A DNA stretch of 43,388 nucleotides, taken from an uncultured marine group III euryarchaeote. Lineage in GTDB: Archaea; Thermoplasmatota; Poseidoniia; MGIII; CG-Epi1. The stretch lies in contig CACAGG010000006.1 of the NCBI GenBank assembly GCA_902531985.1, positions 1-43,388 on the forward strand. Direction: 5' to 3'. The notes below the pieces were generated by a model that made no database searches, was not told where the DNA came from, and saw only the letters and a program-made list of their open reading frames with translations. The position numbers and the translations under genes are program-made. Numbering within the stretch: position 1 is the stretch's first letter; every line of letters begins with the position of its first letter. Below are positions 1,186-39,599 of this stretch, in pieces.

Positions 1186-3216
1186 GTGGAAAGATTACGT
1201 GCACTCACTATAGTCGCCATTTTAATTTTCTCGGCTCTTCCAGTTTCGGGTCTTGATGCGCCAGTTTCAGAGGTTCCAGAAATATCAGAAATACCTAAAG
1301 TAAGAGTAAATGCTTGGGAAGATTTGCCTTGGTGGGAAACGACTTCTCGAGATTTGAATAGAAACGGTATTGTAGATTGGTTAGAACAGATTGAGGATGA
1401 GTACAAGGTAGGCGTTCTATATGATGATGAATTAACGGATGATGATTTTCAATTGTTAGATGATATCGGCCTGGATGTCAAATACCACGTTACTATGGTT
1501 AATGGCCTATTACTAGGTTCAGTAAATTCAAGTTTATTTGAAACAATAAGTGACTTACCTGGCGTATTGATGGTTGAGCCTTATGGTAAAGTTGTATTTT
1601 ACGGTGATGTTCAAACACCAGCCATAAAAGCTAGTAATTCTTCAATTTATCCTGTAGGTGCTTGGGATTTAGGATATACTGGTAAGGGTGTCAATGTTGC
1701 AATTGTAGATACAGGTATTGATGATGAGCATCCAGGTCTAGCAGGTAAAGCAGTAGCAGGATATGATGCAGTTTGCACAGATGATCCATTGTGTATGGCC
1801 TCTCTTCAGCAGGATGATGGTTCTTTTGATCCGGATGATCAAAATCAGCATGGCACAGCATGTGCAGGTATGGCAACAAGTAATGGAATTTTACCTAGCG
1901 GTGATTCTTCTAATTTTACAGGTGCAGCACCTGATGCTAATTTGGTAGATGTAAGAATAGGAACTGCGTTTGGCGCAGGTCCTTTTGAGAATTATATAGT
2001 CGAGCAAGAATTTTACGAATCGGCGATGGATGGTCTTAATTGGGTTATTGACAACAAAGATACTGCATGGGCAAGTGCAGACAATGATAGTTATGGAATA
2101 GATATAATTTCATTATCTTGGGGCATAACTTCCCATGAAACTGGAGGTTCAGATGGTTCAGATATGTTTTCCCAAGTGTTAGATGAAGCAACACTAGCTG
2201 GTGTCGTCGTTTCAGTTGCTGCAGGAAATTCAGGTTCAGATAATGACGGCCTATCAGGTATGGGAGCATCCAGTCTTTCGATAACTGTTGGCGCTCTAGA
2301 TGACAAAAACACTATAGAAAGAGAAGATGATGGCATAGCTTCCTATTCTAGCAGAGGTCCACGCCGAGATAATAATGACGGAAATCCGTATGATGAGATG
2401 AAACCTGATGTTTCAGCACCAGGCACTAATATTGTTCAAGCCGAGGCATGCCATGCCAGTGGAGGTGGATGCTACAATAGAATTCCAGGTCAGGATGCAT
2501 CAGATAATGGCTACAGTGGAAGAGGTAGTGGAACTTCTTATGCGGCACCAGCAGTTTCAGGTGTACTCGCATTAATGATTGAGGCGAATCCTGACTTAGA
2601 TCCTCTAGCACTCCGTGAGATTCTACGTTTGACTTCGGAGAGAAAGGAAACCTTGTCTTCAGCCGATGGAGAGGGTGTTGAAGATGGCCTTTGGGCAACA
2701 GCACCAGAATTAGATCCTTATTGGAATCGTCATTTTGGTTGGGGAATGGTGGATGCTCTTGCAGCAGTTGAATCTTCATTATTAAATACAGATACTGATA
2801 ATCTTAATGTTGATTTACAGACTTACATAATTTCTACTCAAACTGGTAGTGAAATTACAACAATTACAGGCCATTCTTGGTCAAGAAGTGGTTCAGTAGA
2901 CAGAATTGAATATAGTGTAGATGGTAAATCTTGGAAACAGGTTAATTATTTACCTAGTTCAAATGAATCTATATACATAGACTGGATAATTTCAATTGCC
3001 GTCAAAGATTTAGATTTTACAGGTGATCACACTGTTTTGATTAGAGCACTGGATAGTAATTCTATGCACTCTATATCAGCTCACACAGATTTTTTTGCAT
3101 ATGGTCAAGTTTCAGAATCATCAGAAGAGAGTTTAGCCCTTTTGGTTGTAGTAGGAGTACTTTTGCTAGTTGGTACTGCCGTATTGGTGTACAGGAAAAA
3201 TTTCCTAAATTCATAA
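1186..3216 (+). CDS. Secreted, membrane-anchored S8 subtilisin-like protease
   Basis: A subtilase of 676 residues starting at GTG. Residues 1-23 are a signal peptide. Residues 75-140 look like an inhibitor-type propeptide ending in GVLMVEPYGK. The catalytic triad is D175 (VDTGID), H222 (HGTACAGMA) and S451 (GTSYAAPAVSG), with oxyanion N348 (AAGNSG). Residues 550-640 form a beta-rich region, and a C-terminal membrane helix at about 646-668 is followed by a basic tail. It should therefore act outside the cell, tethered to the membrane. A WWETT..DLNRNGIVD motif at residues 49-64 recurs in the second protease at 12857. The peptide importer genes begin about 840 bases downstream, consistent with extracellular protein degradation followed by peptide uptake. 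Substrate specificity is not visible. Confidence 0.93.
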   Translation: MERLRALTIVAILIFSALPVSGLDAPVSEVPEISEIPKVRVNAWEDLPWWETTSRDLNRNGIVDWLEQIEDEYKVGVLYDDELTDDDFQLLDDIGLDVKYHVTMVNGLLLGSVNSSLFETISDLPGVLMVEPYGKVVFYGDVQTPAIKASNSSIYPVGAWDLGYTGKGVNVAIVDTGIDDEHPGLAGKAVAGYDAVCTDDPLCMASLQQDDGSFDPDDQNQHGTACAGMATSNGILPSGDSSNFTGAAPDANLVDVRIGTAFGAGPFENYIVEQEFYESAMDGLNWVIDNKDTAWASADNDSYGIDIISLSWGITSHETGGSDGSDMFSQVLDEATLAGVVVSVAAGNSGSDNDGLSGMGASSLSITVGALDDKNTIEREDDGIASYSSRGPRRDNNDGNPYDEMKPDVSAPGTNIVQAEACHASGGGCYNRIPGQDASDNGYSGRGSGTSYAAPAVSGVLALMIEANPDLDPLALREILRLTSERKETLSSADGEGVEDGLWATAPELDPYWNRHFGWGMVDALAAVESSLLNTDTDNLNVDLQTYIISTQTGSEITTITGHSWSRSGSVDRIEYSVDGKSWKQVNYLPSSNESIYIDWIISIAVKDLDFTGDHTVLIRALDSNSMHSISAHTDFFAYGQVSESSEESLALLVVVGVLLLVGTAVLVYRKNFLNS

Positions 3217-12820: not shown

Positions 12821-12856
12821 AGGTTAGTTTTTAGTAGAGGTATTACATGAGAACTT

Positions 12857-14695
12857 ATGCGCGCATTAATTGCTTCATTTGTCATCGCAATGTTAATACT
12901 TCAGCCAGTCGTGGCCTTCAATAGCTCTTCACAAGCTATTCATTTGGAAGAGAATTGGTGGGAGAACACCGCAATGGATTTGGATAATGATGGAATTCAT
13001 GATGCCATTTGGTTAGCTATTGAAAGTAAAAAGTACGATTGGGTCGATGCTGATGGTAGAATAGGAGTAATAGTAGATTTCGACCATTTACCTACAGAAT
13101 CCGATAGAATTTTGATTGAAAGTAATGTTGATTTTGTGCATTTTCACACGTATCATCTTATTCATAGTATTGCAGGGAGAGTTTCAGTTAATGATATAGT
13201 AGAGTTATCTAAATTATCTGGAGTAGTTATGGTTGAACTTGATGGGATTCTTCAAGTTTCTAATTCAGATGTGAAAGATGTTCATGGTGTGTGGAGTGTT
13301 TATGAAGAGACAGGATATGATGGAACAGGTAGTGTTGTAGCCATTCTGGATACTGGAATAGATGATAAGCATGTAGGGCTAGATGATTTAGATGATGATA
13401 ACTCTACAGATGATCCGAAGGTAATTGCCTTTTTTGATGCGATTGGCAATGCTTCTGTAACAGATGGTTCTGCCGAACCATATGATGGCCACGGCCACGG
13501 TTCTCACTGTGCAGGTACTACAGCAGGTACTGGTGCACCTACGTACGAGCATACAGGAATAGCACCTCAAGCACAACTTGTTGGCGTTAAGGTTCTATCA
13601 GATTCAGGCTCTGGTTCATTTGCCCAAGTTATGCTAGGTATGGAATGGACCGTGGAGAAAAAACATGATTTCAATATAAGAGTTGCCAGTATGAGTTTAG
13701 GGGGCTTTGGTGCGATTGAATGGACTCAAAGTGAGGAAGAGAGTGTTAATCGAATGGCTAATGAAATGGTTCGTAATGGAATAGCTCTATTCATAGCTGC
13801 AGGAAACAATGCAGTTAGTGCTCAAATTGGTACTCCTGGAAGTGCTGAAGATGTAATTACAGTAGGTGCTCTTGACAAGGACACTGCAATAGCCATTTAT
13901 TCTAGTCAAGGTCCAACAGAGGAAGGAAGAATGAAGCCTAATATTGCATTTGTAGGTTCAAGTGTGATGTCTGTTGAGGCAAACACAGGCAGTGGGTACA
14001 GAAGCATGTCAGGAACTAGCATGGCTACTCCTGGTGCAGCAGGCGTTGCTGCTTTGATGTATCAGGCAAATCCAGATCTTGACCCTTTCGCTATTAGAAA
14101 TATAATGCAGGAAACTTCCATCTACCGAGTTTGTCATTACATGGCAGCAAACGAGCCTTGTGCAGAAGATGGTATTCCTAAAAATCGCCAAAATAATGTG
14201 TATGGTCACGGACAGGTTGAATCCCTACCAGCAGTAATGGAAGCAGCTAATACAGTTTATAATTTTTCAACATCAATATCAACTAGTCTCGAAACTATGA
14301 CAATGGAAGATAATAAAGTTCACATAGGCAACTCAGATGAAATCCAATTTTCTGTGAATGGAGATGCTGACAAAGTACAATGGAGAACTTGGGACATGCG
14401 TGATAATTGGATGGATTTAGAAAATTTCAATTCTGGAGATTCCACATTTAAGATCGACCATAGTCTGTTAGTTGACAGACTTAAGTATTTACCAGGAAAT
14501 ACTATTGAAGGTAATCAAACGTTGATGGTTCGAGTCTTAAAAGATACTGAATCTAGTGCTAATCTAGTAGTCCATACACATGTAATGGTTGAATCAAATG
14601 TCGTAGAGCCTGAGGAAGATTCACCCTCTATTCCGTTTAACCTAGTTGTGTTTACTTCGTTGTTAGTAGCTCTTTATAGATCAAAAAGAACATAA
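12857..14695 (+). CDS. Secreted S8 subtilisin-like protease, second copy
   Basis: A subtilase of 612 residues with a signal peptide at 1-20. The propeptide region (about 65-145) ends in GVVMVELDGI. The catalytic triad is D165 (LDTGID), H214 (HGSHCAGT) and S388 (GTSMATPGAAG), with oxyanion N317 (AAGNNA). The C-terminal hydrophobic segment (about 589-606) followed by RSKRT looks like a membrane anchor. Residues 34-49 carry the WWENTAMDLDNDGIHD motif shared with the protease at 1186. The two proteases otherwise differ in length and loops, so they are paralogues, not a recent duplication. The ATG at 12857 was chosen because it begins the signal peptide; the ATG at 12847 is out of frame. A TTTTTAGTA element is centred 26 bases upstream. 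Confidence 0.93.
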   Translation: MRALIASFVIAMLILQPVVAFNSSSQAIHLEENWWENTAMDLDNDGIHDAIWLAIESKKYDWVDADGRIGVIVDFDHLPTESDRILIESNVDFVHFHTYHLIHSIAGRVSVNDIVELSKLSGVVMVELDGILQVSNSDVKDVHGVWSVYEETGYDGTGSVVAILDTGIDDKHVGLDDLDDDNSTDDPKVIAFFDAIGNASVTDGSAEPYDGHGHGSHCAGTTAGTGAPTYEHTGIAPQAQLVGVKVLSDSGSGSFAQVMLGMEWTVEKKHDFNIRVASMSLGGFGAIEWTQSEEESVNRMANEMVRNGIALFIAAGNNAVSAQIGTPGSAEDVITVGALDKDTAIAIYSSQGPTEEGRMKPNIAFVGSSVMSVEANTGSGYRSMSGTSMATPGAAGVAALMYQANPDLDPFAIRNIMQETSIYRVCHYMAANEPCAEDGIPKNRQNNVYGHGQVESLPAVMEAANTVYNFSTSISTSLETMTMEDNKVHIGNSDEIQFSVNGDADKVQWRTWDMRDNWMDLENFNSGDSTFKIDHSLLVDRLKYLPGNTIEGNQTLMVRVLKDTESSANLVVHTHVMVESNVVEPEEDSPSIPFNLVVFTSLLVALYRSKRT

Positions 14696-18388: not shown

Positions 18389-19228
18389 TTACATTTCCTC
18401 CTTGCTTAGTGTACTTTTTTCGTTTATTGGCCTTACCAGAAAAGTAGGATGATTCTTAATCCAAGAGGTAAGGCTTCTTTTTTCATGCTCAATTACTTCT
18501 ACTTTCATTCCTAATTTTAATTCGTCATCAGATCTAACTGAAAAGTTATTTTTGTAAAGAATACTATCGCCGGGCAACCCCATTTTGCTTATTGTAGCAG
18601 TATAAGGATAAGATGAATATTTGCCTATAGGGTTGAGTTTAGTTATTTCTCCTTTTTTACCTATAAATTCAGGAAATAGCAGATCCATATCAAATCCAAA
18701 TAGTTTGTATAGAAACTTACCGCCTATTCCAAAAAGCCAAGAGAATATACCAACAAACATTCCAATGAATATGCCTCCGCTGAGAGTAAAACCCATAAAA
18801 AGTAAAACGAACGGTAGCATTATCGCAACTGGAATAGCTAAGAGGAAAAGATAGAGAATTTCGAAAATATCGAACTCTGGGGTGCCTCTCCGTTCAAGAA
18901 GATAAGCGCTTACAACACAAAAAAGGTAATAGAAGAAAAATGTAAATGAATAGTACATCATTTTCATTTGTCCCTTGTGAGTTTTAATTCCAAAAAACCA
19001 ATCCATGAAAAATATTTTGTCTCTTTTAAGTTCGGGGTTGTTGTCTACAGTTTTTTCTCCAGAAACTTGCTCATTTTCATTATCTGAAGCTCGACTAGTC
19101 TCTTTGTTAGTGATGTCTACAGTTTTTTCAATACTTTTATTGTCTATTTCCTCGCCGTTGTCTACAGTAACTGAACCTTCTTTCCATTTGCGATACTCTT
19201 CGCTGTTTTGGTCTACTTTATCTATCAT
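18389..19228 (-). CDS. Membrane protein with NfeD-like C-terminal OB-fold
   Basis: A 279-residue protein with a charged N-terminal region (1-70) containing SEEYRKWKEG at 9-18 and two EKTVD units. Three to four hydrophobic helices follow at about 90-180. The C-terminal domain (about 190-265) begins GKKGEITKLNPIGK and ends in GMKVEVIEHEKRSL, a pattern like the NfeD OB-fold that follows membrane helices. NfeD proteins are linked to membrane quality control and flotillins. The gene overlaps the RHH gene by four bases and touches folE, so it belongs to this operon, but a link to deazaguanine synthesis is unclear. The SEEYRKW motif recurs in the DUF3592-like protein at 24257. Confidence 0.7.
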   Translation of the reverse strand: MIDKVDQNSEEYRKWKEGSVTVDNGEEIDNKSIEKTVDITNKETSRASDNENEQVSGEKTVDNNPELKRDKIFFMDWFFGIKTHKGQMKMMYYSFTFFFYYLFCVVSAYLLERRGTPEFDIFEILYLFLLAIPVAIMLPFVLLFMGFTLSGGIFIGMFVGIFSWLFGIGGKFLYKLFGFDMDLLFPEFIGKKGEITKLNPIGKYSSYPYTATISKMGLPGDSILYKNNFSVRSDDELKLGMKVEVIEHEKRSLTSWIKNHPTFLVRPINEKSTLSKEEM

Positions 19229-19398
19229 TTTTCTTTGATTCTTCCATGCCTCAAGTCTATATCATCTAATTGATCCAATAGTCTTCGACAAGCAGTTCTG
19301 ATTGCATCAGCTAAACTAACGTATTTTTTTTCATCTCCAACATGGAGTTTTAAGTCAGCTATTATCTCTGCAGGCATGTCTAAACTAATCTTGGGCAT
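19225..19398 (-). CDS. Ribbon-helix-helix (CopG-type) small DNA-binding protein
   Basis: A short ORF of 57 residues. It begins MPKISLDMPAEIIADLKL, giving the N-terminal strand (KISLDMP) and first helix. After a turn (GDEKKYVS), the second helix LADAIRTACRRLLDQLDD follows. This is the MetJ/Arc/CopG ribbon-helix-helix plan, in which a dimer inserts a two-stranded sheet into the major groove. The ATG is 26 bases from the centre of a TATA-like element. The stop overlaps the next gene by four bases (ATGA), making this the first gene of the NfeD-like-folE-queECD run. A 22-base imperfect palindrome lies just upstream of its TATA element. It is a good candidate for an autoregulatory repressor of the operon. 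Confidence 0.75.
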   Translation of the reverse strand: MPKISLDMPAEIIADLKLHVGDEKKYVSLADAIRTACRRLLDQLDDIDLRHGRIKEK

Positions 19399-19419
19399 AG
19401 TTTTCTCTGTTCGGTAGAG

Positions 19420-19428
19420 TATATATTA
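19420..19428 (-). promoter_or_regulatory. TATA box for the RHH-folE-queECD operon
   Basis: On the minus strand this reads TAATATATA and is centred 26 bases before the ATG of the RHH gene, which predicts a leaderless transcript. Confidence 0.6.
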
Positions 19429-19448
19429 GTATTCTTCGAGTAATACTA
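19427..19448. promoter_or_regulatory. Imperfect palindrome, candidate operator
   Basis: Seven-base arms TAGTATT and AATACTA surround a central TCGA, giving a dyad of 22 bases. It abuts the TATA box on the side where TFB binds, so a protein bound here would block initiation. Ribbon-helix-helix dimers bind such sites. It also lies just past the MATE stop codon, but lacks a T run, so a terminator is less likely. Confidence 0.45.
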
Positions 19449-19456
19449 GAGTAATA

Positions 19457-20839
19457 TCAATTAAGTGATTCATCTATGGACTTGATAGTCTTCCATACCC
19501 AAATCGGCCCCACAATAGCAGATACACCAATGGAAATTGCTATGGAATACCAAATCCAAACTATGTCATAATCATTATTTGCAAAATAGTAACCAAGTGG
19601 TGCGGATATTAGCAAGACTCTGAGTGCAGTAATTACCAACACTGGAAATCCTCTTCCCAATCCTTGCATTATTCTACCACAAGGCATAGCTATTCCAACA
19701 AAAGGGTACGCAAAGCAAAGTGTTCTTAAAGCTCCAATACCAATTTCTTCAATAGCTTTGTCATCTGTAAATAATCCCATAATATAAGGTGCAGCTGCAA
19801 ATACAAGAGCAGATGCGATTGCCACGATAACAAATGCTCGACTTATTCCATAGATTATAATTGCTTTGACTTTGTCGATTCTTTCAGCGCCAGTAAACAT
19901 CCCAACAGTTGTAACCAATCCTGTTGCTATACCCATTATCGGTAAAAATAATAGCATATCTAGTCTTCCTGAAATAGTATAGGCAGCAACTGCATCAGGT
20001 CCATATCCATCTATCAAAATATAGTTAAAAACGCCTTGTCCGAATGACATAATAATCATAGATATTGATGAAGGAATTCCAACCCACAGTATTTCCTTCA
20101 TTAATTTAGTTGAAAAAATAAAATTCCTTAAATCAAAACTGATGTAAGCATGTTCTCTCCAAAAAAGCATGTAAATAAATATTGTGAAAACTATAGTCTG
20201 TGAGACTACACTAGCTAGCGCCGCGCCTTCAACTCCCATTCCTAAGCCAAATCCACCGTATCTTTCTAAATTAAAAATAAATATTGGATCTAATATTAAG
20301 TTCAGAATAGTTCCTATTACAGCTACCATTACTGGAAATTTCATATCACCTTCACCTGCTAATATTGACCTAAAAACTATAGCAAAGACTATGAAAGTCA
20401 TACCATAACAAGTAACTTTCAGGTAACTCCAAGATTCATCGAGCATTTCATCAGGAGTTCCCAAACCAGATAGTACTTTTTTGCCAATTAGTAATCCAAA
20501 AATAGTCAACGATAGGCCAAGAAATAAGGCAAGTAAAAGTCCATGTTCAGCAGCATTATCAGCTTTGTTTTTATCTTTAGCTCCGATAGCTCTTGAGATA
20601 GAAGATGTAACACCAGTACCAACACCAAATGTTATTCCCATTACAAAGAAGTAAAGAGGCATGTTGAATGCTACAGCAGTAATTGAATCCCCACCTAATT
20701 GTCCAATAAATAGCATATCCACTATTGAGTACATAGTTTGTATGGTCATTCCAGCCATCACAGGAAGTGCTATACTCCACAGAGCTTTTTCAGGTTTTTC
20801 TAAAAAATCCTGAAGTCGTGATTCATTTTCTTCTTGCAC
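19457..20839 (-). CDS. MATE family efflux protein
   Basis: A 460-residue protein with about twelve hydrophobic helices in two homologous halves, the standard size for multidrug and toxic-compound extrusion transporters. Family features include the N-terminal LQDFLEKPEKALWSIALPVM and MYSIVDMLFIGQLGGDSITA, and GVGTGVTSSISRAIGAKD in the first half. It should export cationic or aromatic compounds driven by H+ or Na+. The GTG at 20839 is the only sensible start, and a CTAAATAG element is centred about 25 bases upstream. The HCSLCDITHG gene lies 37 bases upstream on the same strand. Substrate is not predictable. Confidence 0.93.
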   Translation of the reverse strand: MQEENESRLQDFLEKPEKALWSIALPVMAGMTIQTMYSIVDMLFIGQLGGDSITAVAFNMPLYFFVMGITFGVGTGVTSSISRAIGAKDKNKADNAAEHGLLLALFLGLSLTIFGLLIGKKVLSGLGTPDEMLDESWSYLKVTCYGMTFIVFAIVFRSILAGEGDMKFPVMVAVIGTILNLILDPIFIFNLERYGGFGLGMGVEGAALASVVSQTIVFTIFIYMLFWREHAYISFDLRNFIFSTKLMKEILWVGIPSSISMIIMSFGQGVFNYILIDGYGPDAVAAYTISGRLDMLLFLPIMGIATGLVTTVGMFTGAERIDKVKAIIIYGISRAFVIVAIASALVFAAAPYIMGLFTDDKAIEEIGIGALRTLCFAYPFVGIAMPCGRIMQGLGRGFPVLVITALRVLLISAPLGYYFANNDYDIVWIWYSIAISIGVSAIVGPIWVWKTIKSIDESLN

Positions 20840-20876
20840 ACTTCATCTATAATCGTAGCTATTTAGTGGTTGATGT

Positions 20877-21242
20877 TTATGCTTCTATTTTTTTTTCTAT
20901 TAAAGCAGCTAAAGTGTTTGGGTTCTTCTTACATTTCCTTAGTTCATCATTTGTAACAAGCATTACATAGTTGGTATTGGTTTTTCCAACTATGCATGGT
21001 GTTAAATTGGTAGTATACTTTTCTAGCTTTGGATTTCTTTCATTAAGATGAACAAAGTCAATAGGTATTTTCAATTTCTTTTCGCATTTTTTCCACGAAT
21101 CTTTTTTTCCCATACTGCCATGAGTAATATCACAAAGGGAGCAGTGAGATCCTCCGAAAAATTTACCTGTAATATATTTGAATTCACCGATTAAGCCCCC
21201 GTCTGCGTGATATACTCCTATAATCTTGTTTATTCCTGTCAC
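20877..21242 (-). CDS. Conserved protein of unknown function with HCSLCDITHG motif
   Basis: A soluble protein of 121 residues starting at GTG. The N-terminal half reads GVYHADGGLIGEFKYITGK and then GSHCSLCDITHG, with a CxxC pair. I recall bacterial proteins with the same layout and no known function. The central part has a tryptophan-lysine-rich helix (DSWKKCEKKLKIPIDFVHLNE) and the end a cysteine (LTPCIVG). The two cysteines and histidines could bind metal or act as a thiol site; this is inference. It has a strong TATA box 24-25 bases upstream and precedes the MATE gene. Confidence 0.7.
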   Translation of the reverse strand: MTGINKIIGVYHADGGLIGEFKYITGKFFGGSHCSLCDITHGSMGKKDSWKKCEKKLKIPIDFVHLNERNPKLEKYTTNLTPCIVGKTNTNYVMLVTNDELRKCKKNPNTLAALIEKKIEA

Positions 21243-21261
21243 ATCACATTTTTATTTTTTT

Positions 21262-21271
21262 GTTATAAAAG
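21262..21271 (-). promoter_or_regulatory. TATA box for the HCSLCDITHG gene
   Basis: On the minus strand this reads CTTTTATAAC, centred 24-25 bases before the GTG at 21242. It is a near-consensus archaeal TATA element, consistent with a leaderless transcript. Confidence 0.6.
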
Positions 21272-21316
21272 CTTGCTTCCATAGTGCCTACTTTGTTCTT
21301 AGTGCTTAGCTTAACG

Positions 21317-21323
21317 TTATATT
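21317..21323 (+). promoter_or_regulatory. TATA box for the MFS transporter gene
   Basis: TTATATT is centred 24 bases before the GTG at 21344. With the opposite-strand element at 21262 it forms a divergent promoter pair in a gap of about 100 bases. Confidence 0.55.
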
Positions 21324-21343
21324 GGAGATTGTGAAGTATCTTT

Positions 21344-22675
21344 GTGGATTCAAGAAAAATCGAAGAGGAGATTAATCCCCCAAAGGAGCTTTATGCTTAC
21401 CATGCAACCAGTTCCTTTGCACACGATATTTCCATGCCTTATCTCAGTTATTTTGCAGTAAGGCTTGGTGCATCATTTGAACTAATTGCCTGGATTCAAT
21501 CAACGATGAATCTGCTTCCTAATGCATTACAATACTTTTGGGGGTGGATTTCAGATACAAAGTTGGTAAGAACTTATTGGATTATTGGAGGGTCTATTCT
21601 TGCATCTATCGCACTTTACTTTTTATCCGAGGTAAAAGGCCCGTATGAAATATTATTTTTGGTAATGCTTTATTCGGTTGCTCTATCTATTATTACTCCA
21701 ACGTGGTCTGCATTACAGGGAGATTGGATGAATCCTGCAAAGAGAGGAAGTACTCTAAGCAGATTTCACGTGATAGGTGGCTTAACAGGCTTAGTAGGTT
21801 CACTCATAGCAGTATACTCAGTTTATGTGAACGAGTCAGATACAGCAGATTCATTTCGTCCTTTGTTTGCTATTGCTGCAGTTGCTACCTTTGTCGGCGG
21901 TTTAATTCTAATCAGAGTCCCTTACAGAGATCCAGACAAAATTGAGGATGTGCAATTATCGGATAATGACAAGCAAGAGTATTCAGATACATTTCGTAGT
22001 TTTGTAAATGCTCAGGCATTTTATACCCTGAATATGTCATTAATTTGGCCTTTATTTGCGATGATTTTGATTGATGTTTTAGAAGTTGATAACATGGTCC
22101 TAGTGGCCTTTAGTTTAGTTGGAGCAGTTTCAGAAATGGCATTTCAGCCAATTATGGGGCGGATTGTAGATAGAGTTGGACCTTTACCTGTATTGATTAT
22201 GAGTAGAATAGGCTTTGCAATTTTACCCTTCATTTATGCATTCTTTCCAACGATAGAAGTTATGCTTGCACTACAGATTTTAATTTTAGGGCCTTGTTTT
22301 AGTGCTTTTCTTATAACTCAGAACGCTTTAATTCTAGATTTAGCACCTAACAAAGAGAGGGCAGCTTACTTTAGTTATTATAATTCGAGAATTGGAATAA
22401 CTACTTTTTTCGGTGCCCTAGCTGGAGGATACTTGGCAGGTTATCTGGAAGATTTCTCAGGCTCACTTTTCTTAATTGATAGTTTGATGAATTTTGCTTT
22501 GATTGGCTCTTCAGATCAGACTTGGCGTGCTATTTTCACAATATTTTTGATATCAGGAATAGGTCGAAGTATAGGGACAATTCCATTTTTGAAACTTAGA
22601 ATGCCTAAGAAATATCCAGGTTCCATTTATTTGGTTGATAGATTAATGGAATTCAGGATGTTTAAACGTCGTTAA
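21344..22675 (+). CDS. MFS transporter
   Basis: A 443-residue membrane protein with about twelve hydrophobic helices. MFS traits are a loop motif near SDTKLVRTYWIIGGS after helix two and the repeat-half loop GRIVDRVGPLPVLIMSRIG. It starts at GTG with a TATA element 24 bases upstream. No motif assigns a substrate, and related archaeal proteins are usually labelled only as MFS. It is transcribed divergently from the HCSLCDITHG-MATE pair and converges on the Rieske oxygenase gene, with the two stop codons directly abutting (22675/22676). Confidence 0.85.
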   Translation: MDSRKIEEEINPPKELYAYHATSSFAHDISMPYLSYFAVRLGASFELIAWIQSTMNLLPNALQYFWGWISDTKLVRTYWIIGGSILASIALYFLSEVKGPYEILFLVMLYSVALSIITPTWSALQGDWMNPAKRGSTLSRFHVIGGLTGLVGSLIAVYSVYVNESDTADSFRPLFAIAAVATFVGGLILIRVPYRDPDKIEDVQLSDNDKQEYSDTFRSFVNAQAFYTLNMSLIWPLFAMILIDVLEVDNMVLVAFSLVGAVSEMAFQPIMGRIVDRVGPLPVLIMSRIGFAILPFIYAFFPTIEVMLALQILILGPCFSAFLITQNALILDLAPNKERAAYFSYYNSRIGITTFFGALAGGYLAGYLEDFSGSLFLIDSLMNFALIGSSDQTWRAIFTIFLISGIGRSIGTIPFLKLRMPKKYPGSIYLVDRLMEFRMFKRR

Positions 22676-23746
22676 TTAATTGTAATATTTCTCTAACAAC
22701 AGATGGAAATGATGAACTCCGATCTCTCTTTTAGGAGAGTATCTTCCTCTGTCATAAGAATTGGACTTAACACCTTTCTGGACAGATTCTACAATTTCTT
22801 CATCCTCCAGTTCAACTTTATCTAAATCAGCCCCAGCTCCTTTTTCCATTAATTCTTCTTTCCAAACATAAGTGAAATAATCTATTTCTGTATATTCAGG
22901 AGACTTTGGTTTTACTACATTTATTGATAAGCCCCAAGGATAAAAATTGAACATCATATTAGGAAACAAAAAGAAGTAATATGCTGAAACATTCTTACCA
23001 TAATCCTGATGTTCTTTTGGTAAATCAAAGGTATTCTCATCATCTTTGCCAATGCCTATTTGCAATACAGTATTGTCAATTCCTTGTGTAAAATAATCTT
23101 CATATTCTAATTCTTTGTTTAAATCTTTATGAACAAATGGAATGTGAAAACCTTCCAAATAATTATCGCAATAGAGTGCCCAATTTGCATTCACTTTGTA
23201 GGTTCTTGATAGTTCAGGTCTGTAGACAAATTCATCTACAGGTAACCAATCTAATCTTTCAGCCATTGGCCCAATTAGTTCAGACAATTCACATCTTTTT
23301 TTATTTATTATAAATATTAGATTTTTCCAAAAATCCATCTCGATCTCAGGCAAATTATCTTCGTTACTCGGAAAATTCTCTACTTCATTAAATTCAGGCA
23401 TGAATTTTATTTTTCCATCTAAATGGAATTGTCTTCCATGGTATCCACATACCAAAGATTTAGTTTTACAGGCTTTTTCACAAACTATATTTCCTCTGTG
23501 AGTACAAACATTAGATAAGCATCTAATATCTTCATTATCTTTTGTTAATACATACGGTTCATTTACCATGCCTTCAAGTAAAATATCAGGATGAGCATTA
23601 TTTTTTTCCAGTAAACTTTTGTCTCCGATAAATTGCCAACTTCTATCAAATAATTTTTTTAATCTTTTATAAATTTTAGGACTATAATAAAATTTTGAAG
23701 GTAAAGTCTTTGCTTTTTTGATATCTGAATCAATATTAATTTTCAT
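22676..23746 (-). CDS. Rieske ring-hydroxylating-type oxygenase, alpha subunit
   Basis: A Rieske non-haem iron oxygenase. The [2Fe-2S] site is CTHRG and CGYHG (CxH and CxxH separated by about 17 residues). The mononuclear iron site is DNYLEGFHIPFVH. The lack of an aromatic-dioxygenase signature and the SRPBCC-type tail resemble carnitine, betaine or choline monooxygenases of the YeaW/CntA group, but the substrate is not determined. The ORF can begin at 23776. I prefer the ATG at 23746 because the family usually opens with a short IDxDIxxAxTLPxxFY stretch right after the start, and this reduces overlap with the upstream gene from 41 to 11 bases. No reductase gene lies nearby. Confidence 0.88.
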   Translation of the reverse strand: MKINIDSDIKKAKTLPSKFYYSPKIYKRLKKLFDRSWQFIGDKSLLEKNNAHPDILLEGMVNEPYVLTKDNEDIRCLSNVCTHRGNIVCEKACKTKSLVCGYHGRQFHLDGKIKFMPEFNEVENFPSNEDNLPEIEMDFWKNLIFIINKKRCELSELIGPMAERLDWLPVDEFVYRPELSRTYKVNANWALYCDNYLEGFHIPFVHKDLNKELEYEDYFTQGIDNTVLQIGIGKDDENTFDLPKEHQDYGKNVSAYYFFLFPNMMFNFYPWGLSINVVKPKSPEYTEIDYFTYVWKEELMEKGAGADLDKVELEDEEIVESVQKGVKSNSYDRGRYSPKREIGVHHFHLLLEKYYN

Positions 23747-24260
23747 CTTTACTGCTTCTTGGCCAATTTCTGACATAAGTTAATAGTTTTGTCTCTGCGC
23801 AAAGTTCATTTTCCTTGTCATAGCCTTTTACAATTAGCCATTCTTCATGTTTGTTATTCTGATTTATTCCATTGACGTATGAGTTAATATTTTCTTTTGT
23901 TAACTCAAAGATGACAGTCAAGTCACTTTTCACAGCTTTGAGATATTTGATATTCGCTTCTTTTGTAAAAACATAGGCATCAATTCCTTTTTTACTCAAA
24001 ATTAAAGGTAGGGCCATTCCATAGTACATATCCATTCCAGAGTATGTAGTTCCTCCAAACATTATCTTGTCGAAGGCACTATTGAGCCATGATTGTGTAA
24101 TAATCATTTTAGCTTTCATAAAATCATCACTTATACTCACAACTTTAATTCTATTAGCTATTGATGGAGGCCAACGATTCATCATCTTAGCCAGTTGTTT
24201 TGAGTTTAGATCACGTTCTTTGTATTTTTTGGAATAATATTTGAATGGATTAAGAATCAA
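23736..24260 (-). CDS. DUF4442 hotdog-fold protein (thioesterase-like)
   Basis: A 174-residue protein resembling the DUF4442 group of PaaI-like hotdog proteins. Typical pieces are NPFKYYSKK near the start, a helix around GGTTYSGMDMYYGMALPLIL, and strands with KEANIKYLKAVKSDLTV. Hotdog proteins often hydrolyse or bind acyl-CoA; no catalytic residue can be assigned by eye. The start is TTG, overlapping the previous stop by four bases (TTGA), and no ATG occurs in a suitable place. It overlaps the Rieske gene, so the two are probably coupled. Confidence 0.72.
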   Translation of the reverse strand: MILNPFKYYSKKYKERDLNSKQLAKMMNRWPPSIANRIKVVSISDDFMKAKMIITQSWLNSAFDKIMFGGTTYSGMDMYYGMALPLILSKKGIDAYVFTKEANIKYLKAVKSDLTVIFELTKENINSYVNGINQNNKHEEWLIVKGYDKENELCAETKLLTYVRNWPRSSKDEN

Positions 24261-25276
24261 CGTCTTCGACCACCGCCACCGCTTCGGCTTCCACCGCTAC
24301 TTCGGCCGCCGCCACCTCGGCTTCCGCTACCACTTCTTCCTCCACCGCCGCTACGACTACTTCCTCCACTTCTCCTGACGGCTCGATTATTTCTTCTTCC
24401 ACTACGGTTGTTATCAGATCCAAATACTCCAAAAGAACCCCCACGATTTGGTTCGTAATCTTCACCAATACCTCGAATTCGCTGAGCAGTTCCTAAAAAA
24501 ATACCAATAACAGCTATTAAAGTACAACACATTGCACCAGCACCTATGAGGAAAAATACACTCTCAGCGTCTTCATTTACTTCTCCAAACTCACTATATA
24601 CCTCGCCAGGGTTTTCGGGATTGTAAAATATTCTCACTGTAGAGTTAACTGCCAAGCGCTCATCCGTTGCATTGATAAATTCTTGGAATAATTTATCCTC
24701 TCCCTCACTCTTTAGAACGTCTACCCAGTGACTTTCCCATAATTCTACTATTTCTCCATAGTAACAACCTTCACAACCTTCTTGGCCATTTACATCACTC
24801 GTGTCCTCGACAGTGTAGATGTAAGATACTTCAGCGACGTAAACAAAGTCTTTCCAGCATTCATCGTCGTCAAAATATCCATCATTATTTCTGTCTTCAC
24901 AATATTCTTCGGTTATGAATTTATCTTCAACGCGTGTATATTCTATAGTTCCTTCAACAGAAGGCCATTCACTAGGATTTTTCCCATCTGATTCTCCGTC
25001 ACCAAATTGGAAGTCAGCAGAACCAATTGCAAAAATAAGAAAAGGAATAGTTGTAATAATAAGAAACGCCCAAACATACCAGGGTGGTTTCTCAGAATTA
25101 TCATCCTCATCCGGAGGAGTATATTCATCGTTTTCAGATTTAGGTGTAGTATAGCTTCCACTTCTTGCACCTGTTTCTGAGGGAGTTTTTGATGATGCAT
25201 ATCTGTCATTATCCTCACCACTCCTCCATTTGCGATATGCTTCACTATCTTGTTCGTAATCTTCGTCTTCAGCCAA
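24257..25276 (-). CDS. DUF3592-like membrane protein with EF-hand-type loop and RG-rich tail
   Basis: A 339-residue protein starting at TTG, overlapping dnaJ by 8 bases. The cytoplasmic N-terminal region is acidic and carries SEAYRKWRSGE at 11-21. A membrane helix at 67-84 leads to an external domain whose start (WPSVEGTIEYTRV) and end (VRIFYNPENPGEV) match DUF3592. Inserted at 126-140 is a loop with calcium-ligand spacing (D128, N130, D132, F135, E139) flanked by C126 and C140; a second cysteine pair is C168/C171. A second helix (about 240-263) returns to the cytoplasm, followed by about 60 residues rich in Gly, Ser and Arg ending GGGGRRR. Function unknown. Confidence 0.75.
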   Translation of the reverse strand: MAEDEDYEQDSEAYRKWRSGEDNDRYASSKTPSETGARSGSYTTPKSENDEYTPPDEDDNSEKPPWYVWAFLIITTIPFLIFAIGSADFQFGDGESDGKNPSEWPSVEGTIEYTRVEDKFITEEYCEDRNNDGYFDDDECWKDFVYVAEVSYIYTVEDTSDVNGQEGCEGCYYGEIVELWESHWVDVLKSEGEDKLFQEFINATDERLAVNSTVRIFYNPENPGEVYSEFGEVNEDAESVFFLIGAGAMCCTLIAVIGIFLGTAQRIRGIGEDYEPNRGGSFGVFGSDNNRSGRRNNRAVRRSGGSSRSGGGGRSGSGSRGGGGRSSGGSRSGGGGRRR

Positions 25277-33471: not shown

Positions 33472-35397
33472 ATGGATAATATACTATGGAGTCCATCACA
33501 AAAGCGAAAGAAATCTAGCCTTATTACTAAATTCATAGAGCAATCTTCAGAGGAATTTGATGATTATTTTTCACTTCACTCTTGGTCTATAAATAATATG
33601 GAAGATTTTTGGGAAGAGTTTTGGAATTTTTCCGGTATAATCCATTCTAAGAATTACGATTCAGTTTTAACGAATCCAGTCATGCCTGGAGCAAAATGGT
33701 TTGAAGGTGCTGAACTTAATTATGCAGAAAATCTACTTTCTGGCGAATCAAATCAAACAGCTATAATCAGCGTGGCAGAAGGAAGAGCCGATAAATCCTA
33801 TACCTTTGCAGAATTGAATAGGGCAGTGGCTTCAGTACAGAAGGGATTAGACAAATTAGGTGTAAAAGAAGGAACAAGAGTTGCAGCTTTTGTTCCTAAT
33901 TGCGTTGAAACGGTTATTTTGATGTTGGCAGTGTCTTCATCCGGAGCGATATGGACTTCTTGTTCTCCAGATTTTGGATCTCAGGGAGTTATAGACAGAT
34001 TTGGACAAATAAAGCCTGAAATATTAATTGTTGCAAATGGTTATAATTATAATGGGAAAACGTTCAGTTTAGAAAAAAAAATAAATGGAGTATTAAATGA
34101 GATAGATAGTCTCAAGCATACAATATGTATTGAATTTGTTTCTTTATCATACAATTTAAATCATCCCTCAGTTGTCAATTATGAGACTTTATTGTCACAC
34201 GATTTAGAGATGCCTAAATTCAAACAATTACCTTTTGATCATCCACTTTACATAATGTATTCATCAGGAACTACAGGCCCCCCAAAATCCATAGTTCATG
34301 GGGCTGGAGGAACGCTAATTCAGCACTTAAAAGAACATCAGCTCCAATGTGATATACAAAAAGGCAGAGATACTTTGTTTTGGTTTACCACTTGCGGATG
34401 GATGATGTGGAATTGGTTAGTATCTGGTTTGGCATCCGGAGCGACTATTGTTTTGTATGATGGTAGCCCTAGTTACCAAGGAATGGGGACTTTGTGGAAT
34501 TTAGTCGAACGAGCAGGAATAACACATTTTGGAACAAGTCCTAAATTTTTGAGTGCTTGTGCAAACGAAGATTTAGTGCCAAAGGAAATTTCAAATATTT
34601 CAGCCTTGAAATCAGTACTTTCAACAGGTTCACCTTTAGTTCCAGAACAATTTGATTGGGTTTATGAGAATGTTAGTTCAGATATACATTTGGCCTCTAT
34701 TTCAGGAGGTACAGACATAATTGGTTGTTTTCTAGCAGGTTCTCCAATCTTGCCTGTTTACAGGGGAGAAATTCAATGTCCTCAGCTAGGAATGGACGTT
34801 CAATCTTGGGATGAAACCGGAAATTCAATTATTAAGCAAAGTGGTGAATTAGTTTGTACAAAACCGTTCCCATCTATGCCAGTTAGCTTTTGGAATGATG
34901 AAGACGGATCAAAATATCACAATGCCTACTTTGACGAATTCCCAGGTGTTTGGACTCATGGTGATTATGTTGAAATAACAAAAAATCAAGGAGCTATAAT
35001 TTATGGCAGAAGCGATACTACGTTGAACCCGGGGGGCGTTAGAATAGGTACAGCTGAAATATACCGTGCAATAGAAACACTGCAGTCAATAGAAGACTCA
35101 GTAGTTGTTGGGAAACCAAATTTGGGAGATGTGGAGATAGTATTGTGTGTTAAATTAGCAGATAACATTAGATTAGATTCTGATTTAGAGTATGATATTA
35201 GAAATAAAATAAAATCGATGACTACCCCTCGTCATATTCCGAAGTATATATTTTCAGTTTCTGAAATACCATACACAATAAGTGGTAAAAAAGTAGAAAA
35301 GGCAGTACTTTCCACTATTATTGGTAAAGATGTAAAGAATAAAGATGCATTAGTAAATCCCGAATCGCTTTCAGAATATCAGAATTTATCATTCTGA
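33472..35397 (+). CDS. aacS: Acetoacetyl-CoA synthetase
   Basis: A 641-residue AMP-forming ligase that makes acetoacetyl-CoA from acetoacetate, CoA and ATP. It has the family N-terminal region (LWSPSQKRKKSS, FWEEFWNFSGI, MPGAKWFEGAELNYAENLL), the P-loop YSSGTTGPPKSIVHG from residue 263, TTCGWMMWNWLVSGLASGA, SGGTDIIGCFLAG, and the hinge YGRSDTTLNPGGVRIG. The end ISGKKVEKAV holds the catalytic lysine region. Length and motif order fit AacS better than acetyl-CoA synthetase. It could feed ketone or polyhydroxybutyrate-derived acetoacetate into lipid or isoprenoid synthesis; context does not decide. A T-rich TATA-like stretch lies about 26 bases upstream. Confidence 0.93.
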   Translation: MDNILWSPSQKRKKSSLITKFIEQSSEEFDDYFSLHSWSINNMEDFWEEFWNFSGIIHSKNYDSVLTNPVMPGAKWFEGAELNYAENLLSGESNQTAIISVAEGRADKSYTFAELNRAVASVQKGLDKLGVKEGTRVAAFVPNCVETVILMLAVSSSGAIWTSCSPDFGSQGVIDRFGQIKPEILIVANGYNYNGKTFSLEKKINGVLNEIDSLKHTICIEFVSLSYNLNHPSVVNYETLLSHDLEMPKFKQLPFDHPLYIMYSSGTTGPPKSIVHGAGGTLIQHLKEHQLQCDIQKGRDTLFWFTTCGWMMWNWLVSGLASGATIVLYDGSPSYQGMGTLWNLVERAGITHFGTSPKFLSACANEDLVPKEISNISALKSVLSTGSPLVPEQFDWVYENVSSDIHLASISGGTDIIGCFLAGSPILPVYRGEIQCPQLGMDVQSWDETGNSIIKQSGELVCTKPFPSMPVSFWNDEDGSKYHNAYFDEFPGVWTHGDYVEITKNQGAIIYGRSDTTLNPGGVRIGTAEIYRAIETLQSIEDSVVVGKPNLGDVEIVLCVKLADNIRLDSDLEYDIRNKIKSMTTPRHIPKYIFSVSEIPYTISGKKVEKAVLSTIIGKDVKNKDALVNPESLSEYQNLSF

Positions 35398-35429
35398 AAG
35401 GCTTTAGAACGCCCCTCTTTTACAACATC

Positions 35430-38400
35430 ATGAAGGCCTATATTGTGGCTGCACTTCTCATTAGCACGATTCTGATGAGTTTTACAGATGTAGGTCAAAT
35501 CTCATCTGTTGATAATAATGCAAATATCGTAGAAAGTGGTTCTTCAGAATGTGGCCCTAAAACATTTTCAGATAATGTAAAGGCTGCATTCCAAAAAGAG
35601 TCAAATTTAGATCAATACAGCCCTTCACAAATTTATTTGAGCAAACAATGGGTAGTTTTGTTTAATTATCCTTATTGCATTCAAAATTTAGATAATTTAA
35701 TGGATTTAGCTTTAATTGATAATATAGAAGAATTCAGTATTCTTAGTGGTATTTGGATTTTAACTTTCCAAACTGGAGATGTTGCAATCAATTATTTGGC
35801 TGAAATAAATGACAAAGGCTATCTTTGGAATTATTATCCTTTGATTGAAAAAGAAGTCAGTTTGAAATATCAACCTAATGATTCAAATTTTTCAAAACAA
35901 TGGTATCTTGATAATAATGGACAAAATAACGGAACTGCAGGTATTGATCTAAATGTCGCCAATGTCTGGGATGAATATGCAGGAGATGGTGTTGTAATTG
36001 GAATTGTAGATGATGGTATAGATTATACTCATTCAGATATATCTCCAAATTTTAATAGTGGCTACAGTTATGATTTTTGTGAAGATGATTTAGATGTTAT
36101 GCCTGTAGACTCTTATGACGATAGCGACATTATTGATTGGCATGGGACTGCAGTTTCAGGAATAGCTGCAGGTAAAGGTGATAATGAGATAGGTATTGCA
36201 GGAGTTGCATACAATTCTAGTATAGCTGGAATTCGTTTGGTAGCGGGAGATTGTAGCTATCCATATGAGGAAGAATATACTTTGAATGATTTAGCTATAT
36301 CTCAAGCTTTGTCACATCAATCACAAAATATTGATATTTATTCTAATAGTTGGGGCCCAGTTGATGATGGCAAAACACTAGGATTTATGGGTCCTTTGAC
36401 GATGGCAGCTTTAGAAGTAGGTGTAGCTGAAGGGAGAGGTGGTCTTGGATCAATTTATGTGTGGTCTAATGGTAATGGTCAAAGTAATAATGATTATTCA
36501 AACAAAGATGCGTATGCAAATAGTAGATACACTATCGCAGTTGGAGCTTTAAATTGGCAAGGTAAACAAACTTCATATTCAGAATTTGGATCTAACATTC
36601 TAGTTTCAGCCCCTTCACATAATGAGTCAGAATTTTTAGATGCAGCCATTTATTCAGCAGATATAGTAGGGGAAGGAGGAAATTCCAACGAAGATTATAG
36701 TTTAGTTGTTGGTGGAACTTCAGTTACAACGCCCATGGTTTCAGGAGTTGTAGCACTTATGCTAGAAGCCAATCCAGACCTTACATGGAGAGATGTACAA
36801 CATATTTTAGTTGAAAGTTCAAGGAAAATTGGAGATTCAGATGATTGGTTTAAAACCCAAGTGAATAGGAATTATAATCACGCATATGGTTATGGTTTAG
36901 TAGATGCAAATGCAGCAGTTAATTTGGCCGAAGATTGGGAAAATGTTGAGGAAGAAGTTAATCTTAGAACCTCTAAAATTCTTGTTGATCAATTAATATT
37001 AGATAATAATAACGAAGGCGTTACATCATCATTATTCGTTGATAGAGGCATTTGGATAGAGACTGTAGAAATTACAGTAAATTTGACTCATGGTGATCGC
37101 GGAGACCTAAATGTGTTTCTTACATCCCCTAATGGTATAGTGTCTGAGTTAGTTAGAGAGAATAATCAAGACATTAATTCGGATTATCATGATTGGGTAT
37201 TCACTTCAGTAATTCATTGGGGAGAGAATAGTTTTGGTGAGTGGAAACTTAAGGTCAATGATACTGTATCAGCAGGTAGTTCAGATCGTCAATTTGACAA
37301 TTGGTCCTTATCATTCTATGGTACGGAGGATATAGATAGTGATAATGATAATTTAACAGATTATATAGATTATAAATTAGAGACAGGTATTACAAATCCC
37401 GATTTTGATGGAGATGGAATAATAGATGGTGAGGAGTACTATGGATGGACAAATTTCAAGGGAGAAAAATACAAAACTAATCCTAAGAAACAAGATACAG
37501 ATAATGACGGCATATCTGATTTTGATGAAAGATATAATCAAATTTTAGTCCCATTTACGGAGGAGTTTGGAGCCACAGATCCAACAAATAATGACACAGA
37601 TTCAGATGGTTTACTAGACGGTGAAGAAGTTAATGAATATTTTACAAACCCTCTAACATCAGATACAGATGGTGATACCTTTTACCAAGATCCCTCTTTC
37701 GAGCATCAATTAACTGATTATAATGAAATATTTGCCTATGATTTAACTAACGGTACAATTAAGCCCAGTGATCCTACAAGACTAGATGGAGACAATGATA
37801 CAATGCCAGACTGGTATGAAGTATCTCTCGGTTTTGATCCTATGAAAAAATCGGACGGCGCCCAAGATGCAGATTATGATGGCTTTGATTTAGATTCCAA
37901 TGGATATGTTTCCGAATCTGAGAGGTTTACTAATGCTATGGAATACCATGCAGGAACAGATCCTAAGAGCCAAGATTCGGATGGCGATGGTTTACCAGAT
38001 GGGTGGGAGTATTATTGGGGATTAGACCCATTGATTGATGACACGCTTGAAGATTTTGACAATGATACTATAAAAAATATTGATGAATATGATAATAGGC
38101 AGATTGAAAGTAAAATATTTTCCTTAAATGAGATTAGTTTAAAGGGATATTGGAAATTCGACGGAACTGACCCAACAAGTGTTTTCAATTTAGTTGATAA
38201 TAGTCTTAATCAAGTATTAGGTAATTCTGAAAGAGTTTCAGGTAAATTCTTGAACGGAGTAAATTGTGACGGGGTAGATGATTATGTTAGAACAAATTCG
38301 CTTGATTCATCTAAATTTAAAGAGTATACAGTTAATAGTTGGGTTAAGATAACTAATTTTAGTGATGATTTTGCAACCGTAGTAGGTACTGTAAACGATG

Positions 38401-39599
38401 GCCGAACATGGCTAGGAGTTAATAGTGAAGGTTACTTTGAGTTTAAAGTTTATTCAGGAAGTAAATATTATTTTTCACCAATAACAAATAACAGTATTCA
38501 GCCAGATTTGGGTGTTTGGTACAATTTAGCCGCAACTTACAGTGAATCAGATAAAAAGCTTAAGTTATATGTTAATGGTACTCTAATTTCTGAAGAAATT
38601 ATTGACAACCCTTCAATAAAAACTTCAACAAATTATAATTATATGTGTAGAGGTCAAAATGGCGAATATCTTAATGGAACAATAGACCATGTTTCAATTT
38701 GGAATCGTGCATTAAGTGATGATGAAATAATGTATGTTTTTAAGAAGCCTAAGGGTTTTGGCAATAGTTACCAATTTTTTAGACCTGATGATGGTTTAAG
38801 ATATAGTAATCCTAGTTCAACAGATACTGACGGCGATAAATTAAGTGATGGTGAAGAGGCTTATTTTGGTATTGATGGTTTTGTTACAGATATTACAAAT
38901 CCAGACACGGACTATGATGGGATAAATGATTATGATGAATATTTTGTTTATAAGACATCACCAATTACCAATGACACAGATGGCGATAATTACACCGACA
39001 AGTATGTTTTTGAATTTAATTTATTAACTAAACTTAGACTTAATCAGACGGGGGATGCATTTCCTTTAGACTCTTTAGAATGGAATGATACGGATGGAGA
39101 TGGTATTGGAGATAATTCAGACGCTTATCCTTTGAATTCGAGTGAGCAATACGATACAGATGGCGATTCTTGGGGAGATAATTACGAAATTAGTATTGGC
39201 ACAGATCCAACAAATAATGACACAGATTCAGACGGTTACAACGATTCAATTGATGTTTTCCCTCTTGACTCTAGCGAATACATTGATACAGATGGAGATG
39301 GTATTGGAAACAATACAGATGCCTGTCCTGAGGACAAGAGAGGTTCAGTTGATAGAGATGGTGATAAGGTGTGTGATTCATCAGATCCTTTCCCGGATAA
39401 TCCTAATGAGTGGAAAGATACAGACAATGATGGATTTGGTGACAATTCAGATGCTTATCCTAATGATCCCACTAAATCTTTAGAGTATGAAGAAATAGAA
39501 TTTGAGCAGCAAATTGATAGTGGGATTCTAGACTCATCTATGCTGATAATAATTGCTTTTGGTATAGTATATTTTGTTTTTAAGAAGATAACAAAATAA
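35430..39599 (+). CDS. Giant kexin-like S8 protease with P, thrombospondin-3 and LamG regions
   Basis: A 1389-residue secreted protein. The signal peptide is at 1-18. The catalytic domain resembles proprotein convertases: D194 (VDDGID), H238 (WHGTAVSG), N347 (WSNGNG) and S431 (GGTSVTTPMVSG). A P-domain-like region follows at about 510-625 (ending FDNWSLSFYGTED). Thrombospondin type 3 calcium repeats (DxDxDGxxD) fill about 632-900 and 1125-1360. Between them, residues 904-1105 form a LamG/concanavalin-like domain (GYWKFDGT, CDGVDDYV, DHVSIWNRALSDDEI). A C-terminal membrane helix (about 1367-1384) ends in KKITK. It should be a surface-anchored, calcium-stabilised protease. It lacks the WWET motif of the other two subtilases. 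It converges on ftcD with four bases between stop codons. Confidence 0.92.
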   Translation: MKAYIVAALLISTILMSFTDVGQISSVDNNANIVESGSSECGPKTFSDNVKAAFQKESNLDQYSPSQIYLSKQWVVLFNYPYCIQNLDNLMDLALIDNIEEFSILSGIWILTFQTGDVAINYLAEINDKGYLWNYYPLIEKEVSLKYQPNDSNFSKQWYLDNNGQNNGTAGIDLNVANVWDEYAGDGVVIGIVDDGIDYTHSDISPNFNSGYSYDFCEDDLDVMPVDSYDDSDIIDWHGTAVSGIAAGKGDNEIGIAGVAYNSSIAGIRLVAGDCSYPYEEEYTLNDLAISQALSHQSQNIDIYSNSWGPVDDGKTLGFMGPLTMAALEVGVAEGRGGLGSIYVWSNGNGQSNNDYSNKDAYANSRYTIAVGALNWQGKQTSYSEFGSNILVSAPSHNESEFLDAAIYSADIVGEGGNSNEDYSLVVGGTSVTTPMVSGVVALMLEANPDLTWRDVQHILVESSRKIGDSDDWFKTQVNRNYNHAYGYGLVDANAAVNLAEDWENVEEEVNLRTSKILVDQLILDNNNEGVTSSLFVDRGIWIETVEITVNLTHGDRGDLNVFLTSPNGIVSELVRENNQDINSDYHDWVFTSVIHWGENSFGEWKLKVNDTVSAGSSDRQFDNWSLSFYGTEDIDSDNDNLTDYIDYKLETGITNPDFDGDGIIDGEEYYGWTNFKGEKYKTNPKKQDTDNDGISDFDERYNQILVPFTEEFGATDPTNNDTDSDGLLDGEEVNEYFTNPLTSDTDGDTFYQDPSFEHQLTDYNEIFAYDLTNGTIKPSDPTRLDGDNDTMPDWYEVSLGFDPMKKSDGAQDADYDGFDLDSNGYVSESERFTNAMEYHAGTDPKSQDSDGDGLPDGWEYYWGLDPLIDDTLEDFDNDTIKNIDEYDNRQIESKIFSLNEISLKGYWKFDGTDPTSVFNLVDNSLNQVLGNSERVSGKFLNGVNCDGVDDYVRTNSLDSSKFKEYTVNSWVKITNFSDDFATVVGTVNDGRTWLGVNSEGYFEFKVYSGSKYYFSPITNNSIQPDLGVWYNLAATYSESDKKLKLYVNGTLISEEIIDNPSIKTSTNYNYMCRGQNGEYLNGTIDHVSIWNRALSDDEIMYVFKKPKGFGNSYQFFRPDDGLRYSNPSSTDTDGDKLSDGEEAYFGIDGFVTDITNPDTDYDGINDYDEYFVYKTSPITNDTDGDNYTDKYVFEFNLLTKLRLNQTGDAFPLDSLEWNDTDGDGIGDNSDAYPLNSSEQYDTDGDSWGDNYEISIGTDPTNNDTDSDGYNDSIDVFPLDSSEYIDTDGDGIGNNTDACPEDKRGSVDRDGDKVCDSSDPFPDNPNEWKDTDNDGFGDNSDAYPNDPTKSLEYEEIEFEQQIDSGILDSSMLIIIAFGIVYFVFKKITK
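37574..37606 (+). repeat. 33-base direct repeat, copy 1, in thrombospondin-3 region
   Basis: An identical 33-base stretch occurs here and at 39200-39232. It encodes TDPTNNDTDSD of a calcium-binding repeat. Exact identity at DNA level over 33 bases suggests recent duplication or gene conversion between the two repeat blocks. Confidence 0.85.
39200..39232 (+). repeat. 33-base direct repeat, copy 2, in thrombospondin-3 region
   Basis: This is identical to 37574-37606 and in the same frame. It lies after the LamG domain, about 1.6 kb from the first copy. Confidence 0.85.

Follow-up and report, generated by a model that had tools for sequence, protein, structure and literature searches.

Eukaryotes provide the best-known cases of transferable docking motifs shared by the tails of unrelated membrane proteins. 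Eukaryotic tail-sorting motifs such as YxxPhi are Tyr-based tetrapeptides that sit in disordered tails, tolerate different positions and occur on unrelated membrane proteins. The motif described here, from marine group III (MGIII) archaea, is also Tyr-based, position-tolerant and located in disordered tails of unrelated membrane proteins; unlike YxxPhi, however, it has Trp at the fourth place and continues as W[KR]xG. The closest described module is SHOCT, a short two-helix module of about 30 residues that is widespread in bacteria, is found on many unrelated proteins (several of them membrane proteins), mostly at the C terminus and sometimes at the N terminus, and whose function is left open in its description (PMC3581485). 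Like SHOCT, the MGIII motif is a short predicted-helical module on unrelated, partly membrane proteins, whereas its length of ~10-14 residues, its one predicted helix and its restriction to one archaeal order set it apart. SHOCT and the eukaryotic tail-sorting motifs are distant analogues, and the only ones known. No paper turned up in a full-text literature search with the strings YRKWKEG, EYRKW and EAYRKW, and searches on MGIII and short linear motifs, Poseidoniia genomes and archaeal tail motifs showed nothing on the motif among the records listed. The motif is real and broader than in a preliminary description of this DNA, being MGIII-specific, position-tolerant, transferable and constrained, with a function that we infer.

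The window is the whole stretch of DNA analysed, 43,388 nucleotides in length, and belongs to a 0.97 Mb assembly (G000) that is 75.3% complete. It holds two copies of the motif, in proteins denoted A and B, with the following features.

18389..19228, minus strand: protein A, 279 aa, with an acidic disordered N-terminal tail, hydrophobic segments and a soluble C-terminal part
19175..19204, minus strand: motif SEEYRKWKEG, residues 9-18 of protein A
24257..25276, minus strand: protein B, 339 aa, TTG start, with an acidic N-terminal tail, a TM segment, a domain, a second TM segment and a C-terminal tail
25217..25246, minus strand: motif SEAYRKWRSG, residues 11-20 of protein B
25190..25276, minus strand: conserved tail of B, residues 1-29, including the start codon
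25269..26420, minus strand: dnaJ, upstream of B and overlapping it (context only)

The positions first reported for the two copies are exact, both tails lie ahead of the first hydrophobic segment, and the bodies of A and B are indeed unrelated, as confirmed by Pfam and by ORF comparison. The motif core is also near-identical between A and B at the DNA level (GAAGAGTATCGCAAATGG and GAAGCATATCGCAAATGG, respectively). The TTG start of B overlaps the end of dnaJ, and the same dnaJ-B gene order is found in L168. A third copy in the same genome, EEYRRWKEG, lies outside the window (G000:C7:5647-5672).

Regarding the bodies themselves, protein A has no Pfam or NCBIfam assignment. An NfeD-like fold, suspected by eye, was rejected with no Pfam match and no PDB sequence match, and the predicted model of A is too weak for a fold search (pTM 0.33). 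The inter-TM domain of B weakly resembles DUF3592 in Pfam (19.7 bits), but membership was rejected, with this score and the 18 bits of a B orthologue set against a gathering cut-off of 25.3 bits; a fold search with B gave no match at E<=0.001. SHOCT membership was rejected as well, with no SHOCT match at E<=1 in A, B or ten carrier proteins. The C terminus of B (window 24260-24490) is a long RG/SG-rich tail, RSGGSSRSGGGGRSGSGSRGGGGRSSGGSRSGGGGRRR, which is shorter but retained in g3 orthologues and which we take to resemble RNA-binding RGG tails. Elsewhere in the window, three large ORFs (1180-3213, 12851-14692 and 35343-39596) share regions with one 891-aa ORF of G009 (L166), located near a carrier of family E, listed below.

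Judged from sequence, the motif core is [DE]xYxxW[KR]xG, usually after S, rather than YRKW itself. The YRKW letters vary among carriers (YEEW, YLIW, YRIW), and K replaces the core D/E once, in G015. In families A, B, D, G and H of genus g1 the longer form [ILVY]-x-[QH]-[DNE]-S-[DE]-x-Y-R-[KR]-W-[KR]-x-G is typical.

According to pattern searches at the DNA level, the motif recurs well above its reversed controls. The strict pattern E-x-Y-R-K-W has 2 matches in the window's own 0.97 Mb assembly, both inside the window, compared with 0 for the control, and 29 matches in 21 MGIII genomes compared with 7. In the same 21 genomes there are 35 matches vs 3 for a looser pattern, approximately [DE]xY[basic or similar]xW[basic or similar]xG, and 51 vs 10 for the loosest one, [DE]xYxxW[KR..]xG. 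Recurrence of a short peptide above chance in otherwise unrelated proteins, as looked for in a docking motif, is therefore seen (35 vs 3, with eight body types). Among the strict matches within the order, 22 are tail carriers and 7 of 29 are not tails (five CutA-like C termini and two others); as for the looser pattern, 28 of 35 matches are in tails, with two lyase-like enzymes and five short ORFs making up the other 7. The CutA-like C termini (EPYRKW; L009, L013, L015, L028, L029), methionine-gamma-lyase-like enzymes (L080, L084, L163, L165), the C-terminal DGYDKW (L155, L160) and short ORFs were left out of the carrier count as coincidental; the CutA and lyase names are our assumption from the look of the sequence. 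The non-tail matches within the order, together with the accidental look of those outside it (folded proteins, short ORFs), are what speaks for a mere chance resemblance between two tails. The counts of 29 vs 7, 35 vs 3 and 51 vs 10, however, rule out the chance frequency against which the preliminary description had set its claim, and the tail placement recurs and the motif is conserved among orthologues, so that the probability left to chance is close to negligible.

A profile of 19 positions (A1), built from 13 tail peptides, matches 20 of the 21 MGIII genomes, with all 20 best matches at E<=1.1e-4. Among 389 Thermoplasmatota genomes it matches 8 at E<=0.01, all of the MGIII family. The strict pattern has 73 matches in the 271 other genomes of the class (hand count), a density per Mb of ~1/8 of that in the order when rough genome sizes are used. 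Of 11 such matches examined, ten fall within ORFs no longer than 33 aa, and the remaining one is part of a longer protein; 18 further stretches belong to lyase-like enzymes, other proteins and short ORFs, with no comparable tails. The examined matches include ERYRKW, in methionine-gamma-lyase-like enzymes, and ETYHIW, in a large protein with one N-terminal hydrophobic segment. A Poseidoniia-wide motif was consequently rejected, with the 29 outside-order matches examined falling in lyase-like enzymes, this large protein, other proteins and short ORFs, and the phylum profile search returning MGIII only. Profile and pattern counts thus uphold the lineage specificity suggested at first, but confine it to one order, MGIII, instead of extending it across Poseidoniia.

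In genome_contigs, a collection that represents 84,980 species by one genome each, E-x-Y-R-K-W-K-E-G as a pattern has 13 matches, 10 of them in tails of carrier families and three unrelated (L045, L049, L052). Nine of the 10 tail matches come from records whose titles name Euryarchaeota, MGIII or Poseidoniia; the tenth, L051, comes from a record labelled Neomarinimicrobiota. The latter record (SCKS01000083.1, labelled Candidatus Neomarinimicrobiota) has genes of MGIII type, among them one for a family C carrier and, next to it, one that is 96% identical to a gene of the MGIII genome G003; it is probably mislabelled or contaminated. Regarding virus-borne copies, 3 matches were found in viral contigs, all inside other proteins.

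The carriers comprise the following families.

Family A: the window protein and its orthologues in G011 and G013
Family B: 13 MGIII genomes in which the contig includes the N terminus
B': in G006, an Acyl_transf_3 body that has the tail of B (L076/L169; Pfam E 1.1e-15)
Family C/D: one homologous TM family across g1 and g3
Family E: hydrophobic segments and EF-hands (EF-hand match above the Pfam cut-off)
Family F: a DUF805 body (Pfam E 1.3e-29)
Family G: four hydrophobic segments and, at the very C terminus, the motif (L063)
Family H: cysteine-rich, one hydrophobic segment (L088)
L018: an ORF truncated at the contig end, with a C-terminal motif

The preliminary claim of a short motif common to unrelated membrane proteins is thereby extended from two proteins to eight unrelated body types, mostly of membrane proteins. 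Pfam matches above the cut-off are found in F (DUF805), B' (Acyl_transf_3) and E (EF-hand), and in none of the three is the motif part of the matched domain. When the truncated L018 ORF was used as a query, no full-length relative was found. Strictly N-terminal placement, on the other hand, is not borne out: N-terminal, internal and C-terminal positions are all seen, with the motif internal in family D (~90 residues into the protein) and C-terminal in L063 and L018. Family C/D members in several g1 genomes have a Tudor-like N-terminal stretch (weak Pfam matches only), followed by the motif ~90 residues in. This stretch is missing from the family D protein of the window's own genome (G000:C7), which starts just ahead of the motif (L021 vs L089). 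In another C/D-family gene, L092 (G003:C74), the motif reads EEYRK-stop-KEG with an in-frame TAG, and the gene is probably broken or affected by an assembly error.

At least two hydrophobic segments are present in at least one complete member of A, B, B', C/D, E, F and G, and one in H. Among 104 non-carrier MGIII ORFs, 49 have at least one hydrophobic segment and 36 at least two, whereas all 8 carrier types have one and 7 of 8 have two (P about 0.002-0.003). The enrichment in membrane proteins that the preliminary description had put forward for checking is thus found (8/8 carrier types vs 49/104); the link is significant yet modest over a high baseline, and not overwhelming. Few carriers, 1 to 3, are seen in each of the mostly incomplete genomes. 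ORF comparison of the loci found no gene neighbour general to carriers, although some carrier loci recur. In G006 (L093), for instance, carrier D occupies an intergenic slot that in G012 (L094) is taken by carrier G, encoded on the other strand.

The motif is under strong constraint. Of 330 windows of 10 residues compared across ten B proteins, it ranks first in conservation, with a mean pairwise identity of 0.85, compared with 0.26 for TM1 and 0.46 for the inter-TM domain; these ten aligned sequences were mostly found by the motif, a bias largely removed by a search with the whole B protein. The latter yields 14 bodies, one of which (G006:C99) is cut by the contig end, and all 13 with the N terminus on the contig keep YxxWRxG, with YEEWRRG and YEEWRKG as the g3 variants. 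Conservation above that of the surroundings, another property looked for in a docking motif, is thus found in B (rank 1/330, 13/13 bodies). In family A the motif is kept in degenerate form in 2 of 2 close orthologues (EAYLKWKQG and DEYLIWKKG), while a distant A-like protein in G003 is without it. In family C/D the motif ranks 1 of 108 windows, a biased figure as members were chosen for having the motif. The codons for Y, R, K and G of the motif vary synonymously, and therefore selection acts on the peptide.

AlphaFold2 predicts helices at residues 10-18 of A and 12-19 of B, with low mean pLDDT (43 and 55, respectively) and tails that are otherwise mostly coil. In these two modelled carriers the motif lies in a disordered region, as is looked for in docking motifs, with pLDDT mostly <50 around it. 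In the models, S/D before the motif and G after it fit helix caps, and Y and W would lie on one face. Both ends of B are probably cytoplasmic, because the inter-TM domain is acidic and the C-terminal tail RG-rich. A predicted helix that combines Trp, Tyr and Lys/Arg (YRKWK) on mostly membrane proteins could also serve as a peripheral anchor, laying the tail on the inner face of the membrane without a protein partner. The basic residues, however, are not kept (YEEWRRG and YEEWRKG in g3, YLIWKKG in A), the predicted helix is very short (8-9 residues) and the carriers are already anchored, which makes such an anchor unlikely.

How the tail spreads can be seen in G006, where an acyltransferase gene (B') opens with the tail of B, together with the TTG start of B and a short segment similar to the dnaJ end. 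Its first 102 bases share 75-86 identical positions with ten B genes, and the 15 bases upstream share 7-11; identity falls to background further upstream (14-19/45) and after base 102 (12-17/58). The g3 homologues of this acyltransferase, L170 and L048, differ from it at the N terminus, and the acyltransferase gene of L048 overlaps a family C carrier. DNA-level copying of the tail is thus demonstrated in one case, on a single contig of one assembly, and the B' gene could be an assembly chimaera. It likely occurred in some other carriers, too. The first Arg codon of the motif is CGC or CGT in all five representatives of A, B, D, G and H, although these codons account for 16.7% of Arg codons in the window (P 1.3e-4, noticed post hoc); L086, a member of D, has AGG instead. 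Taken over every motif position, the codons are shared less strongly (P 0.056; 0.010 when E is included), and the motif codons differ in families E, F and C.

The copy in G006 with its TTG start and the unusual CGC/CGT codons common to A, B, D, G and H would also fit a pure recombination product, in which copied start-region DNA supplies a start codon and the shared tail has no function of its own. We regard this as very unlikely: no window of B is better conserved than the motif, which has synonymous changes around it, and this conservation argues for purifying selection; the motif also occurs internally and at C termini, and families E, F and C use other codons.

The motif exists in MGIII, is enriched there, is restricted to this lineage, sits on several unrelated bodies and is strongly constrained. 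A docking or sorting role is plausible, and we consider it fairly probable that the motif is an MGIII-specific transferable docking peptide. Located in disordered, probably cytoplasmic tails of membrane proteins that are otherwise unrelated, it would likely fold as a short helix with S/D as the N-terminal cap and G as the C-terminal one. By means of Tyr and Trp, which are spaced three residues apart, the helix would fit into a groove of a common soluble or peripheral partner, and this putative partner may tether, sort or regulate the carriers. New carriers would arise when a ~100-bp tail-coding stretch is copied onto another gene. Weighing against this reading are the low confidence of the helices, the modest membrane enrichment, the single hydrophobic segment of H, the distant A-like protein of G003 without the motif, the variable YRKW letters, the small number of carriers per genome and the restriction of the tail swap to one assembly. 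A search of PDB sequences with the A1 profile gave one match, a histone demethylase (E 0.74), taken as chance. Mimicry of the J-domain was rejected: helix II of the DnaJ J-domain shares the string AYRK with the B tail, but the carrier tails examined have no HPD, and carriers had no match to DnaJ at E 1e-3 in the ORF comparison.

Docking might also have a destructive outcome, in which a protease or its adaptor would recognise the motif as a tag for degradation or quality control. Such a tag would fit a motif found in the disordered tails of membrane proteins and, in L063 and L018, at the very C terminus. Simple degrons, however, tend to be terminal and loosely conserved, and a tag is the less likely because the motif is unlike them, occurring at N-terminal, internal and C-terminal positions and being conserved within families; we consider it distinctly improbable. 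Returning to non-destructive docking, a more specific and tentative version, which we hold possible but doubtful, is that one order-specific adaptor reads the YxxW[KR]xG helix and gathers the acyltransferase, DUF805, EF-hand, B-type and Tudor-TM carriers, which would then form a common complex, membrane patch or regulatory circuit.

For uncultured archaea, a motif restricted to one order is a ready peptide bait for the putative partner, and it links several function-unassigned proteins together. The route of its spread is visible as tail copying with sharp DNA boundaries. The adaptor system, if it exists, would be the counterpart in archaea of the tail-sorting signals of eukaryotes, and would gain new clients through the copying of ~100 bp of tail-coding DNA.
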